DNA of 35,225 nucleotides from Campylobacterales bacterium (GTDB taxonomy: Bacteria > Campylobacterota > Campylobacteria > Campylobacterales > Nitratiruptoraceae). Made by a program: the position numbers and the translations under genes. The notes under the pieces were generated by a model, which had not been told where the DNA came from, did no database searches, and saw only the letters and a program-made list of their open reading frames with translations. This document shows, in pieces, positions 499-27,527 of this stretch; the first letter of the stretch is position 1, and each line of letters opens with the position of its first letter. Where the stretch lies: contig JALWZJ010000173.1 in the NCBI GenBank assembly GCA_027002625.1, forward strand, positions 1-35,225. The letters are read 5' to 3'.

Positions 499-1965
499 TT
501 AAGGGTGCTTTTTGTTGTAGACGAACTCTTTTTGTAGCCACTTGATTACCATTCGCACACCGGCCCCACTGGCGCCATATGGGTTGTATCCCCACTCTTT
601 TTCCACGTAGGCCGGTCCTGCGATGTCGAGGTGTACCCATTTGTCTTTGTTCTTTTCTTCGATGAATTCACTCAAAAATAGAGCTGCCGTGATGGCTCCG
701 CCATATCTGGAGGAGCTGATGTTGCAAATGTCCGCTATTTTGGATTCGAGCAGTTTTGGCAAGTAGCGGTTGAAGGGCAGCTCTGCTGCCAATTCTCCGC
801 TGGCCTTGGCGGCGGCGAGTATAGAGGAGCGCAGTTCATCGCTATGTCCCATTACGCCACTTGTATACTCTCCAAGTGCTACTACGCAAGCGCCTGTAAG
901 GGTGGCGATATCGATAATGAAGTCTGGTTCTACTTTTTCTTGAGCGTAGCATAGACAATCAGCCAGCACCAGTCGCCCCTCGGCATCGGTGTTGCGTACC
1001 TCTATCGTCTTGCCGTTTTTGGCTCGAAGCACATCGTCTGGTTTGTAGGCGTTGCCGTCTATCATATTTTCAGCCAGTCCCAAAATCGCGTGGATCTCTA
1101 CGGGAAGCTCCAGTTTCTTGGCCGCTTTGACGATACCAAGAGCCGCACTGGCTCCACTCTTGTCCGCTTTCATCGTCACCATATACTCACTTGGTTTGAG
1201 ACTAAGACCCCCACTGTCGTAGGTAAGACCTTTGCCTACGATCGCTATTTTGGCTTTTGCATTTTTTGGAGTGTAGCGCAGATGCACCAGGCGTGGGGGG
1301 TGGACACTGGCTCGACCCACGGCTAAAAATGCCTCCATCTTCTCTTTTTTTAGATCTTTTTCATCCAATATATCGATCTGTAGATCCTCCTCTTTGGCTA
1401 CCTCTTTGGCCAGCTTTGCAAAGCTTTCTGGATAGATCTCGTTTGGAGGAGTGTTGACGATGTCACGCACGAAGTTGGTGGTTTTTGCTACGATCTTGGC
1501 CTCATCTATGCTCTTTTTGGCGTTTTCGAGGGTGAAAGGCTTGTCGGCGTACTCCTCGTTGGCCAAAACGATCTCTTCGAGTCCCTCCTTTTTCTTTTTG
1601 GATTTGTATCTATCGAAGGAGTAGGCTCCAAGGATCGCACCCTCCACAAAGGCTTTGATATTGGTGATGGGGCAGTTTTGGATATAGACCCCGGCTTTTG
1701 CCGTTTTGAACTTTTTGCCTCTGAGAGCCTTGACCGCTTTTGCCGCGGCGATACGGATCTCGTCGTGGTCAAGTTTGGCTCCCACATAGAGTCGACCTTC
1801 GTGGGGCAAGAAGGCCACCTCTTCCACATCGCCCGTAAAACCCAGCTTTTCCAGCTCCTCCTTGTCCTTGACCCATTTGTGGTCCAGATTTTTGTCGATG
1901 ACGAAGACGATCTCGATATCGGCATCGATCTGGTGCAGTTTTTTATCTTTTATTTCGATTTTCAT
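499..1965 (-). CDS. pepA: Leucyl aminopeptidase (M17)
   Basis: ORF 499..2073 with likely start MKIEIKDKK at 1965; contains the M17 signature NTDAEGRLVLAD and metal-binding region GKGLTYDSGGLSLKP. Confidence 0.93.
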   Translation of the reverse strand: MKIEIKDKKLHQIDADIEIVFVIDKNLDHKWVKDKEELEKLGFTGDVEEVAFLPHEGRLYVGAKLDHDEIRIAAAKAVKALRGKKFKTAKAGVYIQNCPITNIKAFVEGAILGAYSFDRYKSKKKKEGLEEIVLANEEYADKPFTLENAKKSIDEAKIVAKTTNFVRDIVNTPPNEIYPESFAKLAKEVAKEEDLQIDILDEKDLKKEKMEAFLAVGRASVHPPRLVHLRYTPKNAKAKIAIVGKGLTYDSGGLSLKPSEYMVTMKADKSGASAALGIVKAAKKLELPVEIHAILGLAENMIDGNAYKPDDVLRAKNGKTIEVRNTDAEGRLVLADCLCYAQEKVEPDFIIDIATLTGACVVALGEYTSGVMGHSDELRSSILAAAKASGELAAELPFNRYLPKLLESKIADICNISSSRYGGAITAALFLSEFIEEKNKDKWVHLDIAGPAYVEKEWGYNPYGASGAGVRMVIKWLQKEFVYNKKHP

Positions 1966-2654
1966 TTTCTCTCCTTGAGTTTCTTTTCGGTCACTTTGTG
2001 AAAATAGTACGAGATACCACCGGCGATCAAAAGAGCCAGCGGCAGGGCGTAGTACCAGTGCGCTTTGGCCCATTTGATAAGAGCGAGGATCTCTTCACCG
2101 AAGATATAAGCTGGGATGATGGTCGCAGCGGCCCATATCATGGCGCTGATGAAGTTGATAAGGGCGAATTTTTTGGCGCTGTAGCGGGTGAGTCCTATGG
2201 CCATAGGGATGACGGTCCGCATGCCGTACAAGTAGCGCTGGATGAAGATGACGGGCCAGCCATACTTTTTTAAAAGCAGATGAGCCAGAGCGAACTTTCG
2301 TCGCTGTTTTTTCATCAAAGAGTGGATATAGTGCTTGTTGAAACGACCTATATAAAAATAGATCTGGTCGCCTACAAACCCTCCAAGACCCGCTACGAGG
2401 ATGGAGAGCCACAGGTTCATATCTCCTGTATGGCTAAGTACCCCTGCCATCACCAGCCCAGTCTCTCCCTCCATGATACTCCACACAAAAAGGATGATGT
2501 AGCCATACTCTTTGAGTAGGTACAAAAACTTCTCTTCGAGATTGTGGCCTGGTGCTTGATAGAGCTGGTAGCCAAGGAATGCCACGAACAAAAAGACCGC
2601 TCCCAAAGCCGCTTGAATGAGCCAATCTCTGTTTTTATGCAAAAATGCTTTCAT
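1962..2654 (-). CDS. DedA family (VTT/SNARE-associated) membrane protein
   Basis: ORF 1962..2828, likely start MKAFLHKNRDW; GGFVGDQIYFYIGR and QRYLYGMRTVIPMAIGLTR motifs of DedA proteins. Confidence 0.88.
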   Translation of the reverse strand: MKAFLHKNRDWLIQAALGAVFLFVAFLGYQLYQAPGHNLEEKFLYLLKEYGYIILFVWSIMEGETGLVMAGVLSHTGDMNLWLSILVAGLGGFVGDQIYFYIGRFNKHYIHSLMKKQRRKFALAHLLLKKYGWPVIFIQRYLYGMRTVIPMAIGLTRYSAKKFALINFISAMIWAAATIIPAYIFGEEILALIKWAKAHWYYALPLALLIAGGISYYFHKVTEKKLKERK

Positions 2655-2662
2655 CGTTTTCC

Positions 2663-3859
2663 TTAGTCGAAATGGAGCAAGGATTTGGCCTGGATCATAT
2701 CCTTGTCTCCTCGGCCCGAGAGATTGACGACGATGAGCGAGTTTTCGATATCTTTCATCTTCTTCAGATATGCCACGGCATGGCTGCTCTCGAAAGCCGG
2801 GATGATCCCCTCTTTTTGGCTCAGCCACACGAAGGCGTCCAAAGCCTCCTCGTCGGTGATGGCATCGTAGCGTACCACACCGAGATCTTTGAGATAGGAG
2901 TGCTCGGGTCCGATACCGGGATAGTCCAGACCCGCGCTGATGGAGTGGGCCTCACGGATCTGCCCCTCTTGGTCTTGGAGCACGTAGCTCATCTGGCCGT
3001 GGAGTACTCCCGGGCTTCCTTTGGCCAGGCTCGCTCCATGCTTGTCGGTATCCAAGCCCAAGCCTCCAGCCTCGATCCCGATACACTGGGTCTCTTCGTC
3101 CAAAAAGGCGTTGAAGATCCCTATGGCGTTGCTACCACCTCCGATACAGGCGATCACGTAGTCTGGTAGACGATTTTCGGCGGCGAGGATCTGGGCTTTG
3201 GCCTCGTAGCCGATGATCCCTTGAAAGTCTCGTACCATCATAGGGTAGGGGTGGGGGCCCGCGACGGTACCGATGACGTAGAAGGTGTCACGGGCGTTGG
3301 TGACCCAGTATCTGATCGCCTCGTTCATGGCGTCTTTGAGGGTACGAGAGCCATTTTTGACAGCATGGACCCTGGCACCCAGAAGTTTCATACGAAAGAC
3401 GTTGAGCTCTTGGCGTTTCACATCCTTCTCGCCCATGAAGATATCGCACTCCAGCCCAAAAAGGGCCGCCATCGTCGCCGTTGCTACGCCATGCTGCCCG
3501 GCACCCGTTTCGGCGATCACCTTTTTCTTGCCAAGGCGTTTGGCCAAAAGGCCTTGGAGAATGGTGTTGTTGATCTTGTGGGCTCCGGTATGGTTGAGAT
3601 CCTCTCTTTTGAGGTAGATGGTGGCCCCCAGCTCTTTGGAGAGATTCTGGGCGTAGTACAGAGGACTTGGCCGGCCTACGTAGTTTTCCAGATAATATCT
3701 GGCCTCTTTCCAAAATTCTTCATCAAAGCGGATCTTTTGGTAGGCCTCTTCCAGCTCCAGAAGGATCGGCATGAGCGTCTCTGGTACGTAGCGACCGCCA
3801 TGGATGCCGAAGTGGCCCAACTCGTTGGGATCGTAGTTGCTCTTTTGTGGTATATACAT
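2663..3859 (-). CDS. trpB: Tryptophan synthase beta subunit
   Basis: [15 protein letters not shown] (PLP lysine), [22 protein letters not shown] motifs. Confidence 0.97.
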
Positions 3860-4407
3860 CAGGCTATCTCCAATACGCTGTATACTGGGCAGAGTTTTTC
3901 CACTTTCTCTTTACCCTTTAAAAAGGTCAAATCGATAACGAAACAGGCTTCCACCAGCTCTTGATCCACCTTTTGGATCAGTTTCGCCGCAGCCTCGGCG
4001 GTGCCTCCTGTGGCGATGAGATCGTCGATGAGAAGGACCCGCTTGCCCTTACCTCTAAAGGCGTCGATGTGGATCTCTATCTCGTCCACCCCATACTCCA
4101 GGGCGTACTTTTCACTGACGGTGGTGTAGGGGAGTTTGCCCTTTTTACGAATTGGCACGAAGCCGATACCAAGCCTTGTGGCCAGAGCCGCTCCAAAGAT
4201 GAATCCACGGCTCTCTATGCCAGCTACGAAGTCGAGCTCCATGGCTTCGTAACGGCTTTGGAGATGCTCCATCAAAAGAGTGAAAGCCTCGGCGTCGTTG
4301 AGCAAGGTGGTGATATCTTTGAAGATGATCCCAGGTTTTGGAAAATCGGGTACGTCACGGATCGTCGAGAGCAAAAATCTCTTTTGTTCCGGGCTTAGTT
4401 CTTTCAT
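3859..4407 (-). CDS. apt: Adenine phosphoribosyltransferase
   Basis: Likely start [37 protein letters not shown] motif [14 protein letters not shown]. Confidence 0.95.
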
Positions 4408-4496
4408 TTTTTGCCTCCAAACAGCAATACTTTCAGGCCGATCATCGCTGCCATCAAAAGAGCGAAAAATAGGTAGCCTACCATCTCGATACCCAT
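4404..4496 (-). CDS. Small 30-aa single-TM protein (not in supplied ORF list)
   Basis: Minus-strand reading [30 protein letters not shown]; start shares one base with the rpiB stop (TGATG), stop overlaps the apt ATG. Confidence 0.65.
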
Positions 4497-4933
4497 CACT
4501 CCTCCAATGCCATGATTTTTTGGACTCTTTTTTCGTGCCGTCCACCTTCGAAGTTCGTGGTACACCACGCCTCCACGATCGATTCGATCACACCAGGACC
4601 CACCACGCGTTCACCAAAGCAAAGCACGTTGGCGTCGTTGTGGGCTCGGGCCATCTGGGCGGTGTAGTAGTCGTGTACTTCGGCAGCTCGGATCCCTTTT
4701 ATCTTATTAGCAGCGATACTCATCCCGATACCCGTACCGCAGATGAGCACCCCTTGGCTGCCAGGATCGGCCGCCACGGCGCGAGCCACCTTGGCGGCAT
4801 AGTCTGGATAGTCCACCCGCTCGGCGCTGTATGTGCCCATATCCTCTACTTCGTAGCCTCTTTTTTCGAAAAGCTCCTTGACGAAACCTTTGACGGCAAA
4901 TCCTGCATGGTCGCTTCCGATGTAGATTTTCAT
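4496..4933 (-). CDS. rpiB: Ribose 5-phosphate isomerase B
   Basis: [20 protein letters not shown]...[10 protein letters not shown]...[24 protein letters not shown]. Confidence 0.95.
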
Positions 4934-5630: not shown

Positions 5631-6387
5631 GTTTTCGCATCTCCTCTTCTATTTGCTCTACCGTCTTGCCTACTCTCTCCCATCTTGGAACATACTCTTT
5701 GTCCCAGCTCCAGTAGATGAACCAGGGCTTGCCTACGATGAGTTTGTAGGGTACGGGTCCCCAAAAGCGGCTATCGTTGGAGTGGTCTCTGTTGTCTCCC
5801 ATCATAAAAAATTGATCTTGTGGAACCTCTATCGGTGGAAAGTCGAAGATCTCCTTAGGGTAGCGTCCATTGTCCACGATCTTTGGATCGTGGTGGATGC
5901 CTGGATGTTCGAGCATATAAGGATCTCGTACCCATAAAAAGCCGGCGATCTTGACGATCCGATCGGCGGGGTAACGAGATCGGATATACTCATCCCCTTC
6001 GTGGGGATGGAGGTAGAGATGTTTGTCGTGTACGAAGAGCATATCCCCGCCCACGGCCACACAGCGTTTGACGTAGTGGATCTTGGGATTGACTGGATAG
6101 CGAAAGATGACGATATCGCCTCTTTTGGGTCTGGGACCTTCTATCAAATGACCGTCTCCATCGAAATCCGGCAGTACCGGGATCTCCAACCATGGGATAT
6201 GGGGAGTGGGGACACCGTAGGCGAACTTCTTGACAAAAAGGTGATCACCGATAAGTAGAGTGTTTTTCATGCTGCCACTTGGGATCACGAAGGCTTGAGC
6301 TACGAAAAAGATAACCAGGAGAACGATGACGATCGTACCGGTCCAGGTATTGGACCAGTGATAAAACTTTACGAGTTTCTCTTTCAA
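5617..6387 (-). CDS. lepB: Signal peptidase I
   Basis: IPSGSMKNTLLIGDHLFVKKF catalytic Ser box; FFMMGDNRDHSNDSRFWGPV box. Confidence 0.96.
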   Translation of the reverse strand: MKEKLVKFYHWSNTWTGTIVIVLLVIFFVAQAFVIPSGSMKNTLLIGDHLFVKKFAYGVPTPHIPWLEIPVLPDFDGDGHLIEGPRPKRGDIVIFRYPVNPKIHYVKRCVAVGGDMLFVHDKHLYLHPHEGDEYIRSRYPADRIVKIAGFLWVRDPYMLEHPGIHHDPKIVDNGRYPKEIFDFPPIEVPQDQFFMMGDNRDHSNDSRFWGPVPYKLIVGKPWFIYWSWDKEYVPRWERVGKTVEQIEEEMRKREHS

Positions 6388-7235
6388 CTACCTATCCTTT
6401 GTCGGGCGGCTTTGATGGTGTTGGCCAAAAGCATCGCTATGGTCATGGGACCAACGCCTCCTGGGACTGGAGTGATGTAGGAGGCCTTTTGACTGATAGC
6501 TTCAAAATCGGCATCGCCTACCAGTTTGCCGTCAGGAAGGCGGTTGATGCCGATATCGATGAGGATCACCCCATCTTTGACCATATCGGCCGTGATGAGA
6601 TGGGGTTTGCCCACGCCTACCACCACCATGTCCGCTTTTTTTGTGTGAGATTGTAGGTCTTTTGTGTAAATATGGCAAATGTCCACAGTGGCGTTGGCGT
6701 TGAGCAAGAGTGCCGCCATCGGTTTGCCTACGATATTGCTCGCACCCACCACGCACACATCCATCCCTTTGGGATCGATATCGTACTCTTCGAGTAGCTT
6801 CATCACGCCAAGAGGCGTACAAGGAGCGAAGGTGTCGAGCCCTTGCATGAGCCGACCGAAATTGTAGGGATGAAAGCCATCTACATCCTTGGCCGGATCG
6901 ATGAGCTCCAAGATATTGGTGGTGTCGATATGGGGCGGTAGGGGGAGTTGGACCAAAATGCCGTCGATATTGGGGTTTTGGTTCATCATCTTGATCGTCT
7001 CTTCGATCTCGGCTTGGGAGATGGAGTGGGGCATATGGTGGACGATGGAGTAAAAGCCCACCTCTTTACAGGCTTTTTCTTTCATCTTCACATACGTCAG
7101 GCTCGCTGGATCGTCGCCTACCAGCACTACCGCCAAGCCTGGAACGATATCATGTTTTTCCTTGAGCTCTTTTGTCTCCTCTTTGATCTGGGATTTTATC
7201 TTTTCGGAGAGTTTTTTGCCGTCGAGAATCTGCAT
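6384..7235 (-). CDS. folD: Bifunctional methylenetetrahydrofolate dehydrogenase/cyclohydrolase
   Basis: ILVQLPLPPHID, PAKDVDGFHP, YITPVPGGVGPMTIAMLL signatures. Confidence 0.97.
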   Translation of the reverse strand: MQILDGKKLSEKIKSQIKEETKELKEKHDIVPGLAVVLVGDDPASLTYVKMKEKACKEVGFYSIVHHMPHSISQAEIEETIKMMNQNPNIDGILVQLPLPPHIDTTNILELIDPAKDVDGFHPYNFGRLMQGLDTFAPCTPLGVMKLLEEYDIDPKGMDVCVVGASNIVGKPMAALLLNANATVDICHIYTKDLQSHTKKADMVVVGVGKPHLITADMVKDGVILIDIGINRLPDGKLVGDADFEAISQKASYITPVPGGVGPMTIAMLLANTIKAARQRIGS

Positions 7236-7271
7236 AGACGCCTCTTTTTGGGGGATTTAAAAAAATTTTCG

Positions 7272-7280
7272 ATATGATAA
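7272..7280 (+). promoter_or_regulatory. Possible -10 element for the cytochrome c / signalling cluster
   Basis: TATGAT at 7273-7278 in the folD divergent gap, about 37 nt before a GTG start preceded by AAGGGA. Confidence 0.35.
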
Positions 7281-7314
7281 CAAAACTATATTGTGATTTG
7301 GTTTAAGGGATGGC

Positions 7315-7647
7315 GTGCGTTTGGTCGGTTTAATGTTTGTGATCGTTTTGGCCTATGGGGAGGACTCCTTCATCACCAAAGAGGAGTATGCGAAGATGCT
7401 CTACCACAACCCCAGAGGCATTGGGTGCCAAAAGTGCCATGGAGAGGATGGCAAGGGAAAGATCCTGGGGCGATATAGGGAGCAAAACCGGACTATCCTC
7501 ATCAAAGCTCCCGATATCACCAAACTCCCTTTCAAAAAATTCTACGATGCACTTGCAAGTTCCAAGCATCGACTCATGCCTCACTACTTCTTGACCAAAA
7601 AGGAGATCAAGACCTTGTACTACTATCTAAAAGTAAAAAAACGATGA
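7315..7647 (+). CDS. Small monoheme c-type cytochrome
   Basis: GTG start; hydrophobic N-terminus and single CQKCHG heme motif. Confidence 0.8.
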   Translation: MRLVGLMFVIVLAYGEDSFITKEEYAKMLYHNPRGIGCQKCHGEDGKGKILGRYREQNRTILIKAPDITKLPFKKFYDALASSKHRLMPHYFLTKKEIKTLYYYLKVKKR

Positions 7648-8567
7648 TTTTCGATACCCAAACACTCCAAAAGATCCAACAAGCGATCGACAGCTGCGAC
7701 GAGGAGTTTTTTCTTCAAAGACTCGCTCCAAAGTCAAGAGAGCCAAAAAGAGTGCGGATCCACTCGGCTCTTATGGTCTCGGCACACAAGGCCAAACATC
7801 TCAACAAGCTGGACGAGCTGGAGTGTGACGCGGCCATTCTCAATCTCGAAGATGGTGTTGCGCCCAAGTTCAAAAGAGTGGCACTACTGGCAGCTGCTCT
7901 TTTTATCCAGCATGCTCCCCCCACCGCTCCTATGCTCGTGGTACGGATCAATCCTTTGGAAGAGGGTGGCGAAGAGGAGATAGCGTTTTTGAATGCCTAC
8001 ATGCCAGATGCCATCAGAGTCCCGAAAGTGCGAAGTGTGGAGGATGTGGCGAAGGCTCTTGGGCTTATCGAAGAGCCTATCGAAGTGCACCTATCGATCG
8101 AGACCAAGGAGGCGTGGAGAGGATTTGGTGGATTTGGGATAGACGAGCGGGTGAGTACGCTCTATCTTGGTATCTTGGATCTTTTGGCGGATCTGGATAT
8201 ACCCCAAAGCATCTTGCGCCTCCAAAATCCCACTATCGATCATATTTTGGCCAAATTTTTGGTGGAGTCCAAAGCCTCGGGACTCTATCCGGTCTCTTTC
8301 GTCTATCAAAACTATCAGGATCTGGAGGAGTTCGAGGAGTGGTGTAGGTACGAAAAGACGATGGGTTACGAGGCCAAAGCCTGTATCACACCAGATCAAG
8401 TGGGAGTGGTCAATCGGATCTTTTCGTGGGATCGGCAAAAAGCGCTTTATATCAAAGAGCGTTTCGAGCGGATGAGAGAGCAGGGGGTGACGGGATTTGT
8501 GGACAAGAAGTATGGATTTATCGACGAGCCGATCTATAAAGACGCTTTGAATAATTTGAAGAGGTGA
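7644..8567 (+). CDS. HpcH/HpaI aldolase / citrate lyase beta (CitE)-like family protein
   Basis: RIHSALMVSAHKAKHL...CDAAILNLEDGVAP...MLVVRINPL...IRVPKV...LGILDLLADL resembles CitE-like TIM-barrel motifs; 4-nt overlap with upstream gene. Confidence 0.8.
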   Translation: MIFDTQTLQKIQQAIDSCDEEFFLQRLAPKSREPKRVRIHSALMVSAHKAKHLNKLDELECDAAILNLEDGVAPKFKRVALLAAALFIQHAPPTAPMLVVRINPLEEGGEEEIAFLNAYMPDAIRVPKVRSVEDVAKALGLIEEPIEVHLSIETKEAWRGFGGFGIDERVSTLYLGILDLLADLDIPQSILRLQNPTIDHILAKFLVESKASGLYPVSFVYQNYQDLEEFEEWCRYEKTMGYEAKACITPDQVGVVNRIFSWDRQKALYIKERFERMREQGVTGFVDKKYGFIDEPIYKDALNNLKR

Positions 8568-8568
8568 G

Positions 8569-9201
8569 ATGTTCTATTTTTTTGAAGTGATGGATGAGAA
8601 TATGATGGAGCGGATCTACCGCTTCCGCTACGATATCGTATGTGAAGAGCTTGGATTTTTCGACAAGGAGCGCTATCCGGATCAGAAAGAGCGTGACGAG
8701 TACGATCGCTACTCCACCCATTTCGTGGCTTTGGATGAGGAGTGTCAGATCGTGGCCACCACCAGGCTCATCCACCACTCTCCCATAGGATATCCCACAG
8801 AAGAGCATCTGCAGATCTATCCAGAGGTCAAAGCGCTGCTCGATACCTTCAAAAAAGAGAAGCTCAGCGAGATCTCTCGTGTCTTCATCGCTAAAAAACA
8901 TCGCAATATGTACGATAGTAAACTTATCATTTCCAACTTCATTGTTGAGAAAATCTATCCTTTGGGAAAAGATTTAGGTATCGAATATTGCTACTCGGCT
9001 ATGGAGAAGCGCTTCATCCGCTTCACCAGGATGCTGGGTGTGCGGTACGATATCATAGGCCCTCTCCAGGAGGGCTACGGGTCGCCTCGCTATCCCTGCT
9101 TGCTCAGTATCGCCAGGCTGGAGCGGGACAATCCGATGCTGTTAGAAAACTATAAAAAGAGAGTCCAATGGTTCAAAGGATCGCAATTGTCGCTACAGTG
9201 A
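8569..9201 (+). CDS. LuxI/FeeM-superfamily N-acyltransferase (PEP-CTERM/exosortase-associated acyltransferase-like)
   Basis: FEVMDEN..ERIYRFRYDIVCEELGF...ERDEYDRYSTHFVALD...IVATTRLI...SEISRVFIAKKHRN preserves the R / E..D.YD / TRL / E.SR pattern of LuxI-like synthases. Confidence 0.7.
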   Translation: MFYFFEVMDENMMERIYRFRYDIVCEELGFFDKERYPDQKERDEYDRYSTHFVALDEECQIVATTRLIHHSPIGYPTEEHLQIYPEVKALLDTFKKEKLSEISRVFIAKKHRNMYDSKLIISNFIVEKIYPLGKDLGIEYCYSAMEKRFIRFTRMLGVRYDIIGPLQEGYGSPRYPCLLSIARLERDNPMLLENYKKRVQWFKGSQLSLQ

Positions 9202-11210
9202 GTTTGACACTTTTCGCCAATCCCTTAAGCGAGAGTCTCAAAAAAGATCTCCAGACCTTTTCCCATATCGCCGATATCTCCAAAGAGAACGAGTTTTTCC
9301 AGCCCCATATCGTCTCCATCTACAGAGGATACGAGCTCGAAAAGCTGGGCGTCCAGACTCTTCAAGATGCTTTATGGCTGGTTCCCGGAGTGGATATATA
9401 TTCCAATAATTTAGGTGCAATCTATCCAGTTTTTAGAGGCTCCAATCCCATCACCTTTGGCCAAACCAAACTTTTCATAGACGGTGTTTTGGTCAACAAT
9501 CTTTTTGGAGATCACTACACCCAATATATGCAGATGCCCATAGAGCTCATCAAGCGTATCGAGGTGGTGCGAGGGCCAGGGAGCAAAAGCGAAGGGGTCA
9601 ATGCCTATGCAGGATCGATCTATATAACCACCTATGCCGAGAATTTTGGCGAATTCGAGTGCAACAAGGTTTTTGTCAAAAGAGGATCCCAGCTTTTTCG
9701 TGGCGGGGGATTTTATACCAACCACCATCTGGGCGAATTGAAACTCTATACCGAGTTTTACTATCAACAAGACGACAAGAGTGTCTACTCCGGTCCCGAT
9801 ATGCTCTATACCGGCTATCTTGGTGAGGTCAACAAGCCTTTGGCCAAGGCTGGGGAGGCTCCTTTGTGGCTCAAAAACTACTCCTTCGCCATGACCATGA
9901 GCCTGGGAGGCTTCAAGCTTCAAGTTAGAGATAACCGCTACAAACATGGTATGGGATTTGGTGTGAGCTATCTGTTGCCGCCAAAAAATGATTACTATCT
10001 CATGCCAAATCGATATATGGAGATGAGCTATCAAAAAGATTTGGCCAAAGTGTGGCACTTGGAGTTGAAAAGTGGGGTACGCCACGACTCTTTGAGCATG
10101 GATACCCACTACGCCCCAGCGGGTCTTGTAGTGCCGAGTCCTTTCGATCCCGATCGGATCGTGGTCTACAAAGAGGGGATGTACGGCTTTTTCCAGGCAA
10201 AACAGAGCACCATCTACGCCAAAGCTTATCTTGGCTACAAAGGATGGTCGAGACACGAAGTGGTTTTTGGTGCGAGAGGTTCCAAAGAGCGCACCTATGG
10301 CGTCACCACCATCACCACCGACAAGACGGGTCAAAGTGGTCAATTGGTGGACTACTCCGAGAGTTTTCCTTTTTTGGATCCAAAGGCCAAGCGAGTCTCT
10401 TCTATCTTTTTTTTGAGCGATACTTTCGAGTATAGCCGCGATCTCACTTTCTATTACGGGATCAATCTGGAGAGAAATACCCAAAGCGACTATATTTTCA
10501 ATCCTCGATTTTCCATGGTCTACCAGATAGACACGGCGAACATTTTCAAAGCCTCCTATGCCAAATCCCAGCGCAACCCTTCGTGGCAGGAGCTTTTCAC
10601 TATCAACAACATCACGAAAGTGGGCAATCCGCATCTGCGTCCTGAGCGGGTGCATGCCCTGGAGGCCAGCTTCATCCACCGATTCGGAGCCGACGATTTC
10701 GTACAGGCCTCCATATTTTTCTTGCGCAACAAAAATCTCATAGACAATATCAATCTCGAACACAAATATCTCAACCGAAAGGATCAAAATCTCTACGGTT
10801 TCGAGCTGGAACTCTCGAAGATGGTGGATGCCTACACCAAGCTCTATGCCAACTACTCCTTCGTAGATGGACGCAACAGTTGTGGCACCCCTTTGGCCAA
10901 TATTGCCAAACATATGGCCAAGGGGTATCTGCTTCGCCAGCTCACCCCCAATCTAAGTGTTAGCCTATTGGCTCGATATGTGGGCGACAAACACCGTTTT
11001 AGTTTCGATACGAGAAAGCCACTGAGAGGATATACCACTTGCGATCTTGGGCTCTCCTACGCTTTCGACAATGGTCTGCATCTAAGATTCAGTGCCAAAA
11101 ACATCTTCGATGCTACGATCAAATACCCTTCGCCCCCTTACACCTATATAGAGGACTACTCGGCAATGAAGGGGCGGGCTTTCATCTTCTCTATGGTTTG
11201 GGGGTTGTGA
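9168..11210 (+). CDS. TonB-dependent outer-membrane receptor
   Basis: Signal peptide MVQRIAIVATVSLTLFANP; plug domain LGVQTLQDALWLVPGVDIY..FRGSNP..KLFIDGVLVN..IKRIEVVRGPGS; C-terminal RFSAKNIFDATIKYPSPPY...GRAFIFSMVWGL. Confidence 0.93.
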   Translation: MVQRIAIVATVSLTLFANPLSESLKKDLQTFSHIADISKENEFFQPHIVSIYRGYELEKLGVQTLQDALWLVPGVDIYSNNLGAIYPVFRGSNPITFGQTKLFIDGVLVNNLFGDHYTQYMQMPIELIKRIEVVRGPGSKSEGVNAYAGSIYITTYAENFGEFECNKVFVKRGSQLFRGGGFYTNHHLGELKLYTEFYYQQDDKSVYSGPDMLYTGYLGEVNKPLAKAGEAPLWLKNYSFAMTMSLGGFKLQVRDNRYKHGMGFGVSYLLPPKNDYYLMPNRYMEMSYQKDLAKVWHLELKSGVRHDSLSMDTHYAPAGLVVPSPFDPDRIVVYKEGMYGFFQAKQSTIYAKAYLGYKGWSRHEVVFGARGSKERTYGVTTITTDKTGQSGQLVDYSESFPFLDPKAKRVSSIFFLSDTFEYSRDLTFYYGINLERNTQSDYIFNPRFSMVYQIDTANIFKASYAKSQRNPSWQELFTINNITKVGNPHLRPERVHALEASFIHRFGADDFVQASIFFLRNKNLIDNINLEHKYLNRKDQNLYGFELELSKMVDAYTKLYANYSFVDGRNSCGTPLANIAKHMAKGYLLRQLTPNLSVSLLARYVGDKHRFSFDTRKPLRGYTTCDLGLSYAFDNGLHLRFSAKNIFDATIKYPSPPYTYIEDYSAMKGRAFIFSMVWGL

Positions 11211-11752
11211 TGAGACAGATTGTGCTGTTGGTGCTGCTTTTTTGCTTCGCCCAAGCCTACGAATACAACAAGCTTCTTTTGCGCACGCAATCTTCCCTCT
11301 ATCCCAAACTGATCGTAATGGATCGAAAACTCTCTTCCCACATCAACGATAGGCGTATCGATCTGTATATCTTGGTCACCTCCATCGATTGGCTCTATGG
11401 CAGATATATCAAAGAGCAGCTGGACAAACTTTTCCCCAAAGGGGTAGGAGGGTATATTCTGCGTACTAAGGTGGTAAATTTTTCCACCTTTTTAGCCGAT
11501 AAAGAGAAAAGTGCCGACGCCATCTACCTACTCAAAGCGAAGGAGGAGATCTTGGAAAAGGTGGCCAAAAAGATAGAGGGGAAAAATATCTACTCCTTTA
11601 CCTATGAAAAAGAGGATCTGCTCTTTGGGTTTTTGTTCAATGTCTCCATCGAAAAAGAGGTGGTGATCTATATCAACAAAAGGGTGCTGTTGCGCAACGA
11701 TTTCGAATTTATGCCCGAGCTTTACCAGATGGCTCGGTTCATAGAGCCTTAA
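11210..11752 (+). CDS. Small exported protein, candidate YfiR-like (DUF4154)
   Basis: ATG of MRQIVLLVLLFCFAQAYEYN signal peptide overlaps the receptor stop (TGATG); C-terminal FNVSIEKEVVIYINKRVLLRNDFEFMPELYQMARFI resembles the C-terminal layout of YfiR proteins; family call is by pattern only. Confidence 0.5.
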   Translation: MRQIVLLVLLFCFAQAYEYNKLLLRTQSSLYPKLIVMDRKLSSHINDRRIDLYILVTSIDWLYGRYIKEQLDKLFPKGVGGYILRTKVVNFSTFLADKEKSADAIYLLKAKEEILEKVAKKIEGKNIYSFTYEKEDLLFGFLFNVSIEKEVVIYINKRVLLRNDFEFMPELYQMARFIEP

Positions 11753-11753
11753 A

Positions 11754-13700
11754 ATGCTAAATCTAAAAAAATCTCTGAGTTCTCGCATACTTTTTTACTT
11801 TTTTATCGTGGGCATCACTCTCATCGTAGGGGTCTTCTACACTTTCGAGGAGGCTGGGAAAGAGGCCTTTAAGCAGATGGAAAAAGAGAAGGCCGAAGTG
11901 ATCGTCAACACCATCGTCCCCACTATCGCCATGAATCTCTATTTGGGAATGACTTCTAACGTGGACAAGATCATCAAAGAGGTGACCGACAACAACGAAA
12001 ACATCCTGGGTATCACCGTAGTGAACAAAGGCAAAGTGGTCAGCAGCTACCTCAAAAAAGATATCGGCAAGAGCGATTACTTCATCATGACTCGCACCAT
12101 CAAGCGTCCCAACTCCGATGAGAGTATCGGGAAGATGCACGTGATCTACTCCTACGCCCATTTCAAGCGATTGGTGAGCAAATATAGCAAACTTTTGTGG
12201 ATATTTTTGTTCGGTATCGCCGTACTTTTGATCCTTTTTAGTATCTATTTGGAGCAGCTTCTTTCGCCTTTGAAGCAGATAGTGTTGCAGCTGAGCAACT
12301 ACACTCCCAAGAAAAATCTCTCTTTCGAGTTTTCCGATAGAGAGGACGAGATAGGGAGGATCTCCAGGACATTGGAGAAGATGCAGCAAAAGATCAGAAG
12401 CTACGCTTTGAAACAGGAGAATATGAACAAAATATTGGAGGAGAAGGTCCAACAAAAGACCCAAGAGCTCAAAAATCGACTCTATGTAGACTCCTTGACA
12501 GGACTACCCAACAGATTTCGCCTCCAAGAGGATCTGGAAAATCTAAATGACGCCACCCTCATCATTATCAATATCGACGATTTCAAAGAGCTCAACGATC
12601 TTTTCGGCCATAAAACGGGAGACAAGATCCTGGCCAGTTTCGCCCAAAACATCAAAAATCTCATTACCACCAACTATCCCAAATTTTATCGCTTTTCGGG
12701 TGACGAGTTTGCGATGCTCTTCAATAGACGAATGACGAAAAGCGATATCGAGCAGTTTTTGAGTCTTTTGGCCAACAAGATAGAGAATATGACCTTCTTT
12801 CATGGCGACAAGGAGCTTTCGCTCCATGTGACGATGGGAGCCTATATCGGCAAAGAGGGAGCCTTGGAGAAGGCCGATATCGCCCTCAAAAAGGCCAAAC
12901 AGCATAAAAAGAGCTACGAAATCTACGAAGAGAGCGACAAATCGGTGGAGATCCAGTACCAAAAGAATATCGAGTGGATCAAAAGGCTTAAAAAATCGAT
13001 AGATCTGGAGCGAGTGATCCCCTATTTCCAAGCGATCGTCAACGCTCAGACCAAAAAGCCAAAAGGCTACGAGTGCTTGATGCGAATCAGAGGAGACGAA
13101 GGAGAGATCCACTCACCGTACGAGTTTTTGGAGATCGCCAAAAAGTCCAGATACTATCCTAAACTCACCCAGATCATGATCGCCAAAAGCTGCCAATATT
13201 TTCAGCACAGCAACTGCGGCTTCTCCATCAACTTCTCGATCCTCGACATCATGAACAAAGATATAGTCCAGACACTCAAAGAGAGTATCGAGAAGTATCA
13301 GGTAGCCGATCGGCTGATCTTGGAGATCGTGGAGTCCGAGGGGATCGAGAACTACTCTTTGGTGTACGATTTCGTGACGGATATGAAAAATATCGGCTGC
13401 CAGATCGCTATCGACGATTTCGGTACGGGCTACTCCAACTTCGAGCATATCTTGCAGTTACCTATCGACTATATCAAAATAGACGGCTCTTTGGTCAAAA
13501 ACGTCTCCACCGACGAAAACTCCGAGCTGATCATCTCCACCATCGTCAATTTGGCCAAAAAGAAAAAGATAGCCACCGTAGCGGAGTTCGTCAGCTCCGC
13601 CGAGATCTATGAGAAGGTGAAGGCTCTGGGAGTGGATTATGTCCAGGGCTACTACTTCGCCAAGCCGGAAGAGCATGTAGAGATCGAGTGCGATCAGTAG
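11754..13700 (+). CDS. Membrane-anchored HAMP-GGDEF-EAL c-di-GMP protein
   Basis: Two N-terminal TM segments flanking ~110 aa periplasmic region; HAMP-like linker; SGDEF; DSLTGLPNR; EAL motifs YECLMR, FSINFS, LEIVESE, AIDDFGTGYSN, IDYIKIDGSLV, VQGYYFAKP. Confidence 0.93.
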   Translation: MLNLKKSLSSRILFYFFIVGITLIVGVFYTFEEAGKEAFKQMEKEKAEVIVNTIVPTIAMNLYLGMTSNVDKIIKEVTDNNENILGITVVNKGKVVSSYLKKDIGKSDYFIMTRTIKRPNSDESIGKMHVIYSYAHFKRLVSKYSKLLWIFLFGIAVLLILFSIYLEQLLSPLKQIVLQLSNYTPKKNLSFEFSDREDEIGRISRTLEKMQQKIRSYALKQENMNKILEEKVQQKTQELKNRLYVDSLTGLPNRFRLQEDLENLNDATLIIINIDDFKELNDLFGHKTGDKILASFAQNIKNLITTNYPKFYRFSGDEFAMLFNRRMTKSDIEQFLSLLANKIENMTFFHGDKELSLHVTMGAYIGKEGALEKADIALKKAKQHKKSYEIYEESDKSVEIQYQKNIEWIKRLKKSIDLERVIPYFQAIVNAQTKKPKGYECLMRIRGDEGEIHSPYEFLEIAKKSRYYPKLTQIMIAKSCQYFQHSNCGFSINFSILDIMNKDIVQTLKESIEKYQVADRLILEIVESEGIENYSLVYDFVTDMKNIGCQIAIDDFGTGYSNFEHILQLPIDYIKIDGSLVKNVSTDENSELIISTIVNLAKKKKIATVAEFVSSAEIYEKVKALGVDYVQGYYFAKPEEHVEIECDQ

Positions 13701-14443
13701 ATGATCGAATATTTCACAAAAATTTTGATCTTTGTCGTGGTTTTGGGGCGAGGGTAGTCTTTGAAGGCGGTTTTGATAGTCTCGATGCTGTTTTTGTCCA
13801 GTGCTTCGTACCCACTGGAGGTAAGAAGCCGCAGATCACTTATATCTCCATTGGAGTGGAGCAAAAACTCCACGGCGTTGATGCCCTCTTGACGAGTTTT
13901 GACGGCGATGTAGGGGTAGCCTCGCAAGTAGAGATATTTTTGAGTGATCGTAGCGATTTTAGTTAGATTGTCTTGTAAAAACCTTTTTTGCTCCTTTGTA
14001 AAAGTGGAAAAATCGTCCCTGTAGAGTTTTCGTAGCTCGGGTGGCAATTTGGATAGGCCCGCTTTGGCCTTTTGGGGAGTGGGGGCCTTGGCGAAAAGGG
14101 CTTCTAAAGATGGCATGGTCTGGTTGTGCTCTTTTTGGATGGTTTTTCTATATCGTTTGTGGGATTTGACGAGTTTTTTTCTTTGGTGCTTATGAAGGAG
14201 CTTTGGTTTTTGTTTGAGCCTCTTTTTGATAGGTTTTGGATGGGGTTTTTTGATAGAGGGTTTGGATCGATATGTAAGGGTAGGGGATGGCTTGGGAGCC
14301 GGTTTTAAAATCTTGAGTCCTTGGATATTGAACCTGGCTTTGTGAGATGGCGGTGTGGTATGACGCGTATCGAACCAGATAGCCCAAAGAAGCAGTAGAT
14401 ACAGAGCCAATGTGATGAAAAAAGAGATCAAAAGCCTATTCAT
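13694..14443 (-). CDS. TonB-like energy-transducing protein
   Basis: N-terminal TM MNRLLISFFITLALYLLLLWAIW; Pro/Lys-rich linker PKPIKKRLKQKPK; C-terminal GINAVEFLLHSNGDISDLRLLTSSGYEALDKNSIETIKTAFKDYPRPK typical of the TonB C-terminal domain. Confidence 0.8.
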   Translation of the reverse strand: MNRLLISFFITLALYLLLLWAIWFDTRHTTPPSHKARFNIQGLKILKPAPKPSPTLTYRSKPSIKKPHPKPIKKRLKQKPKLLHKHQRKKLVKSHKRYRKTIQKEHNQTMPSLEALFAKAPTPQKAKAGLSKLPPELRKLYRDDFSTFTKEQKRFLQDNLTKIATITQKYLYLRGYPYIAVKTRQEGINAVEFLLHSNGDISDLRLLTSSGYEALDKNSIETIKTAFKDYPRPKTTTKIKIFVKYSIIY

Positions 14444-14471
14444 AACCAAATTATAGCTCTTTTTAGGTAGC

Positions 14472-25697: not shown

Positions 25698-26623
25698 GAG
25701 GATTGGTGCTTTTGAATATGGGTGGTCCAAACAACTTAGATGAGGTGGAGCTTTTTTTGAAAAATATGTTCAACGATCCCAATATCTTGCCGATCAAAAA
25801 CGAGCTAATCAGACGCTTCGTAGCCTACGCCATCACTACGGGGCGAAAAAAGGAGGCCAGGAGCAACTACGAGCGATTGGGTGGGCAAAGTCCTCTAAAT
25901 TTTTATACCGACAAACTCATCCAAAAGCTTCAAAAACGCCTGCCAGACACCTTCGTCACCAAAGCGATGCGCTACACGCCGCCCTTTGCCAAAGATGCGA
26001 TCAAGGAGCTGATGGCTCGAAACATCAAAGAGGTCTATCTGCTGCCTTTGTATCCCCACTACTCCACCACCACGACCAAATCGAGTCTTGAAGATTTCTA
26101 CAACACGGCCAAAGGGGTGGGATATCACGCCAGGTTCCACGACATAGCCAACTTCTACCAAGAGCCACTCTTCAATCAAGCGATTACCCAGCGTATCGAA
26201 GAGGCGATGGAGGGAAAGGATACAGAGGAGTTCGATCTGATCTTCAGTGCCCATTCGTTGCCTCAAAGCATCGTAAAAAGAGGCGATCCTTATCCCTTTG
26301 AAGTCCAAGAGCATATAGAAATTCTCAAAAAGATGATCGGCCAGCGCTTCAAAGATATCCATCTGGCCTACCAGTCCAAACTGGGACCTGTAAAGTGGCT
26401 GGAGCCAAGTTTGGAGGAGAAACTCAAGAGCCTACAGAACAAAAAGGTATTGGTCTATCCCATCTCTTTTGTGCTGGATAACTCCGAGACGGAGTTTGAA
26501 CTGCATATCGAGTATAAAGAGATCGCCAAAAAGCTGGGGTATGAGGAGTATATCGTGGCCAAATGCCTAAATGATAACGATACTTTCGTGGAAGCTTTGG
26601 CTAAAATCTACCAAAGGATGTGA
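25694..26623 (+). CDS. hemH: Ferrochelatase
   Basis: VLLNMGGPNNLDEVELFLKNMFND, YPHYSTTTTKSS, LIFSAHSLPQSIVKRGDPY. Confidence 0.97.
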   Translation: MRGLVLLNMGGPNNLDEVELFLKNMFNDPNILPIKNELIRRFVAYAITTGRKKEARSNYERLGGQSPLNFYTDKLIQKLQKRLPDTFVTKAMRYTPPFAKDAIKELMARNIKEVYLLPLYPHYSTTTTKSSLEDFYNTAKGVGYHARFHDIANFYQEPLFNQAITQRIEEAMEGKDTEEFDLIFSAHSLPQSIVKRGDPYPFEVQEHIEILKKMIGQRFKDIHLAYQSKLGPVKWLEPSLEEKLKSLQNKKVLVYPISFVLDNSETEFELHIEYKEIAKKLGYEEYIVAKCLNDNDTFVEALAKIYQRM

Positions 26624-26624
26624 G

Positions 26625-27527
26625 ATGACAGGCTACATCTACGATCCTATCTTTACGCTGCATGGCAGTGACGAGCATATCGAAAACCGCTTTCGAGTGG
26701 AGCGAATCCACGAAGTGGCCCAGCACTTTCCACTGGTGCGATACCCTATCAAAAAAGCCAGCAAAGAGGAGCTATCTTGGATCCACGATCCAAACTATGT
26801 GGAGTGGGTAGAGAAGGCCTACGAGGAGGGGTATCGCTTTATCCTCAACGAAGATACGCTGCTCACTCCACGAAGCTTCGAGGTGGCAAGCTACGCCGCA
26901 GGCTCTACCATGCCCATCATTGACGCTTTTGCAAATGGCCAGATCACAAATGCTTTTTTGAATATCCGCCCGCCGGGCCATCACGCCGAGCGCAAGATGG
27001 GACAAGGCTTTTGTATCTTCAACAACATAGCCCTCATGGCCAGATATGCCCAACACAGAGGCTTTGCAAAGGTTTTGATCGTCGATTTTGACGTGCATCA
27101 CGGCAACGGTACCCAAGATATCTTTTATACTGATGATACGGTCTGTTACTTTAGCACCCACGAAAAGAACAATTACCCTTACTTTACCGGTAGCGTAGAA
27201 GAGATCGGCGAGGGGAGGGGCAAAGGCTACAATATCAACCGTCCTTACGGAGACTACTGCACGGATGAGGAGCTGCTAAGGCTCTACGAGGATCTGCCAG
27301 GGTGGTTCGATTTTGATATCGTGCTTGTCAGTGCCGGATACGATCTGATGAAGGATGAGGCGATCTCTACGGCTCAGATCACTTTCGATGGGCTTCGGGC
27401 TTTGATAAGGCGCCTTTTGGATTTTGCTGGAGACAAGCCTATCGCTTTTGTATTGGAGGGTGGATACAATCTCGATAGTTTGGCCCAAAGCGCGGAGGTG
27501 ACGCTCCAGGAGCTTACCGGTGTATAA
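26625..27527 (+). CDS. Histone deacetylase / acetylpolyamine amidohydrolase family protein
   Basis: IRPPGHHAERKMGQGFCIFNNIALMA, ILIVDFDVHHGNGTQDIFY-like VLIVDFDVHHGNGTQ, FVLEGGYNLDSLA. Confidence 0.95.
   Translation: MTGYIYDPIFTLHGSDEHIENRFRVERIHEVAQHFPLVRYPIKKASKEELSWIHDPNYVEWVEKAYEEGYRFILNEDTLLTPRSFEVASYAAGSTMPIIDAFANGQITNAFLNIRPPGHHAERKMGQGFCIFNNIALMARYAQHRGFAKVLIVDFDVHHGNGTQDIFYTDDTVCYFSTHEKNNYPYFTGSVEEIGEGRGKGYNINRPYGDYCTDEELLRLYEDLPGWFDFDIVLVSAGYDLMKDEAISTAQITFDGLRALIRRLLDFAGDKPIAFVLEGGYNLDSLAQSAEVTLQELTGV

Follow-up and report, generated by a model that had tools for sequence, protein, structure and literature searches.

The DNA analysed here, called the window, is a stretch of 35,225 nucleotides from a Campylobacterales bacterium of the Nitratiruptoraceae (contig JALWZJ010000173.1, forward strand). 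Four contiguous genes on its plus strand form a cassette. The first, at 8569-9201, encodes a 210-residue N-acyltransferase of the LuxI/FeeM fold, hereafter ACT. It is followed by a TonB-dependent receptor (TBDR) of 680 residues (9168-11210), a YfiR-fold periplasmic protein of 180 residues with a signal sequence (11210-11752) and an inner-membrane HAMP-GGDEF-EAL protein of 648 residues (11754-13700). The start of the TBDR gene overlaps the end of the ACT gene by 34 bases. The ATG of the YfiR-fold gene overlaps the TBDR stop codon (TGATG), and a single base separates it from the last gene. A mechanical call gives a longer open reading frame from 11039 over the YfiR-fold gene; its start was taken at 11210. 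A TonB gene (13694-14449, minus strand) converges with the cassette; where the other Nitratiruptoraceae-type loci extend far enough, they have a homologue in this position. A promoter and terminator scan gave matches no more frequent than in shuffled sequence.

One base upstream of ACT lies a gene for an HpcH/HpaI lyase (7644-8567, plus strand; CitE/RipC-like by Pfam and NCBIfam). We considered it as a core gene and rejected it: the lyase adjoins ACT only within the window's own family, and because its position is conserved there only, it is probably not core to the cassette. Ahead of it, a gene at 7315-7647 (plus strand) encodes a 110-residue protein with a weak match to cytochrome c; a gene of similar length is found here in the same family only. 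An M17 aminopeptidase gene is found near ACT both in the window (within 499-4545) and in a Sulfurimonas-type locus (L050, within 6278-9456), and the similar-sized neighbours around the two genes hint at an old shared location. Elsewhere in the window, a gene for a histone-deacetylase-family protein (26571-27527) overlaps the end of a ferrochelatase gene.

ACT is a real LuxI/FeeM-fold N-acyltransferase, with predicted activity. Its reading frame is intact and is kept open in 16 of the 22 genomes of the window's family, so it is no chance ORF. An alignment of 28 homologues shows that R20, E41, D43, D46, P76, E101, S103 and R104 are invariant. Position 66 is an arginine in 54 of 60 homologues, and the remaining six seem to have it one residue earlier. 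The window's protein keeps the motifs R20, E41-D43-YD46, R66 and E101-x-S-R104. We take the charged core of LuxI enzymes to be R24, D45, D48, R68, E97 and R100 in EsaI numbering; it is present in ACT as R20, D43, D46, R66, E101 and R104. The aromatic residues that pack on SAM in AHL synthases (F28 and W34 of EsaI) are not kept. At these places the window's ACT has V24 and F30, and only 8 of 60 homologues have a tryptophan at position 30. The product therefore need not be an AHL, and the residues at this site make an acceptor other than SAM likely. Relatives of this synthase reportedly produce N-acyl amino acids, for which Craig et al. 2011 is cited.

Among the best PDB matches of the ACT structure model (pLDDT 95.1) are the AHL synthases BjaI, TofI, LasI and RpaI, and then FeeM. 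FeeM (PDB 2g0b) matches with an E-value of 1e-7 and TM scores of 0.65 over the query and 0.74 over the target. Searching the PDB with a sequence profile of the ACT family retrieved TofI (6e-6) and LasI (2e-5). TIGR03694, the exosortase-associated type, is the top NCBIfam match (90.8 bits, E 9e-26) and lies below its cut-off of 111.95; six ACT homologues score 30-86 bits against it. Autoind_synth (PF00765) gives 22.3 bits, just below the curated cut-off of 24. A sequence-only reading had proposed a LuxI/FeeM-like acyltransferase from an arginine and the E..D.YD, TRL and E.SR patterns, and had placed it closest to the exosortase-associated type. Alignment and fold agree with the first proposal. 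The ranking of profiles agrees with the second; neither Autoind_synth nor TIGR03694 exceeds its cut-off. The same reading was right to place the gene directly upstream of a TBDR.

The TBDR consists of a plug (PF07715) and a barrel (PF00593), and its N-terminus and plug are conserved. CirA and BtuB are the closest solved structures. A Pfam search up to an E-value of 10 returned plug and barrel matches only and no STN signalling domain. The YfiR identity of the 180-residue protein depends mainly on the predicted fold. Its match to DUF4154 (YfiR/HmsC; PF13689) is weak and below the cut-off, and weak matches to this domain are obtained for 7 of 25 YfiR-fold members. The model (pLDDT 94) finds Pseudomonas aeruginosa YfiR structures (4yn9, 4xjy and others) as its best PDB matches, with a best E-value of about 5e-6 and TM scores over the query of 0.55-0.66.

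The last protein of the cassette, identified by Pfam, NCBIfam and alignment, has two hydrophobic stretches around a short periplasmic segment of about 110 residues, followed by a HAMP-like linker; HAMP is detected in 17 of 23 members. The YfiN model PRK09966 matches its residues 17-369, far below cut-off. All 23 members share the EAL catalytic positions (E, N, ExxE, DD, K, E, Q) without variation. The GGDEF motif is variable: SGDEF in the window, and AGDEF, GGDEF or more degenerate forms (GSDEF, SSDEF, SADEY) in other members. Thus, phosphodiesterase activity would be the safer guess for the output of the protein.

The linkage of ACT and TBDR is widely conserved. We searched 397 Campylobacterota genomes and inspected about 19 kb of surroundings for each match. 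This identified 33 ACT matches in 32 genomes, belonging to eight genera and three families. At 28 of these loci, ACT lies directly upstream of, and on the same strand as, a TBDR of one family, mostly with an overlap or within about 10 bases; 27 of these ACTs are intact and one is decayed. Five loci depart from this arrangement (L038, whose downstream side lies beyond the contig, L039, L041, L054 and L061). Only 3 TBDR plug domains are found in the window's own genome, so that the probability of adjacency by chance would be roughly 0.2% for any one locus. Judged by the titles of related named records, the cassette is found in genomes of Nitratiruptor, Hydrogenimonas, Sulfurimonas and Arcobacter type. 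A nine-sequence ACT profile, whose patterns favour close relatives, gave 29 named loci, nearly all from Campylobacterota; the Arcobacter-type records L092 and L094, from named loci, carry the same cassette. A single ACT protein used as query against genome contigs gave no match. In genus g37, ACT identity drops to only about 25% and the GGDEF-EAL gene has been inverted and lies divergently upstream, yet the order ACT-TBDR-YfiR is kept. The linkage of these three genes survives gene rearrangement. We are close to certain that the four cassette genes form one functional unit. A second, divergent ACT homologue of 252 residues is encoded at L061 (6792-7550, contig G292:C39), with neither TBDR nor YfiR as neighbour.

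ACT and the receptor module also co-occur across genomes. Counting as strong YfiR members those with at least 150 bits, a threshold set after the scores had been seen, the YfiR profile finds them in 33 of the 397 genomes, 30 of which have ACT. Both ACT and the module are present in 30 genomes, ACT alone in 2, the module alone in 3 and neither in 362 (Fisher p 2e-39, without correction for kinship or the species tree). The two genomes with ACT but no module are G074 and G295; those with the module but no intact ACT are G379, G129 and G279. In G129, an ACT remnant of 46 residues precedes an intact receptor. In G368 and G292, synthase and receptor cassette are at separate places.

A decayed ACT stands in front of intact TBDR-YfiR-GGDEF/EAL genes at two loci, L128 (about 7164-7304) and L062 (G254, 8722-9068). 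Such decay would leave receptor solos. The weaker members of the YfiR profile are TBDR-YfiR-GGDEF/EAL cassettes lacking ACT. In other Campylobacterota, TBDR-YfiR cassettes without ACT (L136-L147) mostly come with GGDEF or GGDEF-EAL-like proteins; they apparently represent a broader sensory theme of which we found no description. Since such cassettes exist, receptor modules of this class can respond to other cues. In a tree of the TBDRs, all 50 ACT-linked receptors fall in one part together with five close solos, and 8 of the 11 remaining YfiR-linked solos are found outside it. The solos L136-L138 join the g37 group, with long branches and modest support. Distances between ACTs correlate with those between TBDRs (r 0.88, without correction for the species tree), which shows joint inheritance and not specificity.

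A LuxR partner for ACT was considered and rejected. The LuxR autoinducer-binding domain (Autoind_bind, PF03472) is absent from all 31 ACT genomes searched and was detected in the E. coli control. ACT shares with LuxI/LuxR systems (BjaI, TofI, LasI) the synthase fold, the acidic and arginine residues and a synthase gene that adjoins a receptor gene. It differs from them in the tryptophan of the SAM site, which is a phenylalanine, and in its Autoind_synth score. We propose a receptor in the outer membrane, and c-di-GMP turnover as the output.

On balance, and by a slight margin, we think that a self-contained circuit from an acyl signal to c-di-GMP best explains the cassette. First, ACT would acylate a small amine with a fatty acyl chain, the amine being most likely an amino acid or a related compound, and the amphiphilic N-acyl product would leave the cell. 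Second, the cell's own product or that of its neighbours would bind the outer-membrane TBDR encoded with ACT, which would work with the TonB beside it. Third, the TBDR would alter the amount of free YfiR-like protein in the periplasm and so stand in for YfiB, the lipoprotein of Pseudomonas. Fourth, YfiR would act on the GGDEF-EAL protein through the latter's periplasmic domain and thereby set c-di-GMP turnover, with effects on surface attachment or motility; the sign and direction of this response are conjectural. That the ACT product is both the TBDR ligand and a signal seems to us a little better than an even bet. We give about even chances to the full picture of communication independent of LuxR, in which a diffusible acyl signal comes from a LuxI-fold synthase, a dedicated TBDR receives it at the outer membrane and a YfiR relay converts it directly into c-di-GMP turnover. 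We infer the chain from synthase to TBDR, YfiR and c-di-GMP from gene linkage and from the known parts. Counted against it are the TBDR without an STN domain, the loss of the SAM aromatics and the mismatches of ACT and module in five genomes.

Known systems resemble parts of this circuit. In Pseudomonas, YfiR acts in the periplasm to keep the cyclase YfiN inactive and is itself sequestered by YfiB, a lipoprotein of the outer membrane (PMC3375315, PMC4655355). The cassette shares with P. aeruginosa YfiBNR the YfiR fold and an inner-membrane partner with a periplasmic domain, HAMP and GGDEF. In contrast, it has no gene for a YfiB OmpA/Pal lipoprotein; a TBDR occupies that position, and a LuxI-fold synthase is added. 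Divergent YfiNR modules without YfiB, often with a GGDEF-EAL output, have been described (PMC3375315). TonB-dependent transducers of the FecA/FpvA type also have a signalling chain that starts with a TBDR sensing at the outer membrane. The cassette differs from them in that its receptor has no STN domain, no anti-sigma/sigma pair is encoded in it and the relay is the YfiR-fold protein.

The same genes could serve capture. The ACT product would then be an acylated chelator or surfactant that collects a metal, haem or a nutrient outside the cell; the TBDR would sense or import the loaded molecule and YfiR and GGDEF-EAL would report its availability, so that the cue would be a nutrient and not cell density. 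Siderophores and vitamin B12 are classic TBDR cargo, CirA and BtuB are the nearest solved receptors, and siderophore-receptor profiles of NCBIfam match the TBDR weakly. However, genes for siderophore biosynthesis, an ABC importer or a binding protein are all missing from the cassette, in which the constant linked partner is a relay for signalling. Moreover, one N-acyl amino acid on its own chelates poorly. We regard capture as unlikely.

Equally unlikely, in our estimate, is an output role, in which the cassette would use ACT to produce an amino lipid, surface-active or destined for the membrane, for example in attachment, while the TBDR would sense a ligand unrelated to it. ACT is co-encoded with a putative regulator, and N-acyl tyrosines change the species composition of biofilms in Planctomycetes (PMC7293339). 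Some N-acyl amino acid synthases bear PilZ domains, which places those enzymes downstream of c-di-GMP (PMC4897644). Against this, a Pfam search found no PilZ domain fused to the window's ACT, and ACT lies directly upstream of the TBDR, not beside the GGDEF-EAL gene; where the latter has moved, ACT stays with TBDR and YfiR.

Much less probable is that ACT is an exosortase-associated N-acyl amino acid synthase of the TIGR03694 type, acting with protein sorting. TIGR03694 ranks first among the NCBIfam profiles, and FeeM shares the LuxI-like GNAT fold with ACT, but the score is below cut-off and ACT is linked to TBDR, YfiR and GGDEF-EAL genes, not to exosortase and PEP-CTERM. In an exosortase search over 45 genomes, PF09721 matched above its cut-off in 4 of the 31 ACT genomes, each from the window's genus, and below it in 2 more; the other 25 have no match. 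Among the first eight members of the genus examined, exosortase and ACT coincide (four with both, four with neither). However, five further ACT genomes of this genus (G399 and G401-G404, drafts of 82-98% completeness) have no exosortase match. The sequence-only reading had rightly found neither an exosortase nor a LuxR gene in the window, and had named, as a result that would count against it, an exosortase/PEP-CTERM system elsewhere in the genome that accounts for ACT. Half of this applies: another contig of the same genome carries a small exosortase locus (L064, G000:C28, 1483-3155) with genes, in order, for a 160-residue XrtX/XrtH-like exosortase, an XrtH-associated-like membrane protein and a 184-residue protein with an IPTL-CTERM-like tail. 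This locus is unlinked to ACT and of another subtype. Because PEP-CTERM is absent from the window's own genome and no exosortase match was obtained in 25 of the 31 ACT genomes, exosortase does not explain the ACT gene, and this alternative is mostly refuted. The suggestion of the same reading that the product has a different use gains support from the conserved TBDR-YfiR-GGDEF-EAL cassette, a signalling unit that it had missed.

Least credible of all is that ACT is an ordinary metabolic or detoxifying GNAT acetyltransferase: the broad Acetyltransf_5 is the sole Pfam match above cut-off (48.1 bits, cut-off 22.4) and small GNATs are among the fold matches, but the E-x-D-x-YD and E-x-SR motifs, which are specific to LuxI, vary little or not at all, and AHL synthases including TofI and LasI are the best solved matches by profile and among the best by fold.

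If the acyl-signal circuit is correct, it would provide an acyl-signal system for chemosynthetic Campylobacterota, which form biofilms at vents and in sulfidic habitats. To our knowledge, LuxI-type signalling has not been described in Campylobacterota. An input would be found for c-di-GMP control of the YfiR type without YfiB, and a TonB-dependent receptor would serve as quorum-sensing receptor. ACT adjoining TBDR-YfiR offers a bioinformatic handle, and the four-gene unit is testable in a laboratory host. In the open-licence literature in PubMed Central, we found no description of YfiR and a TBDR as one system, of the two with an acyltransferase, or of DUF4154 with a TBDR; autoinducer synthase, exosortase and acyltransferase together yielded one LuxI survey only.

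A gene of the leucine-carboxyl-methyltransferase family lies directly upstream of ACT at three loci (L094, 6178-7066; L041, 8957-9844; L039, 10396-11283). Methyl esterification would make sense if the product had a free carboxylate, as an N-acyl amino acid does, and not if it were a lactone. PhcB/3-OH-PAME signals are of the methyl-ester type, and the three loci are compatible with a methylated carboxylate in the ACT product; synthase family and receiver are different, however. As a general partner of ACT the methyltransferase was rejected: it is found in 2 of 37 genomes and is missing from the window's genome. Its absence from the other ACT genomes searched makes it a local modification at most.

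A plasmid search with ACT returned only two distant relatives, both rhizobial. On plasmid p1 of Sinorhizobium sp. B11, a distant relative of ACT (L148, 5192-6603; 27% identity), annotated only as a GNAT, scores above the Autoind_synth cut-off and lies behind a LuxR gene with an autoinducer-binding domain. Judging from these domain matches, the two genes are probably an unannotated LuxI/LuxR pair.
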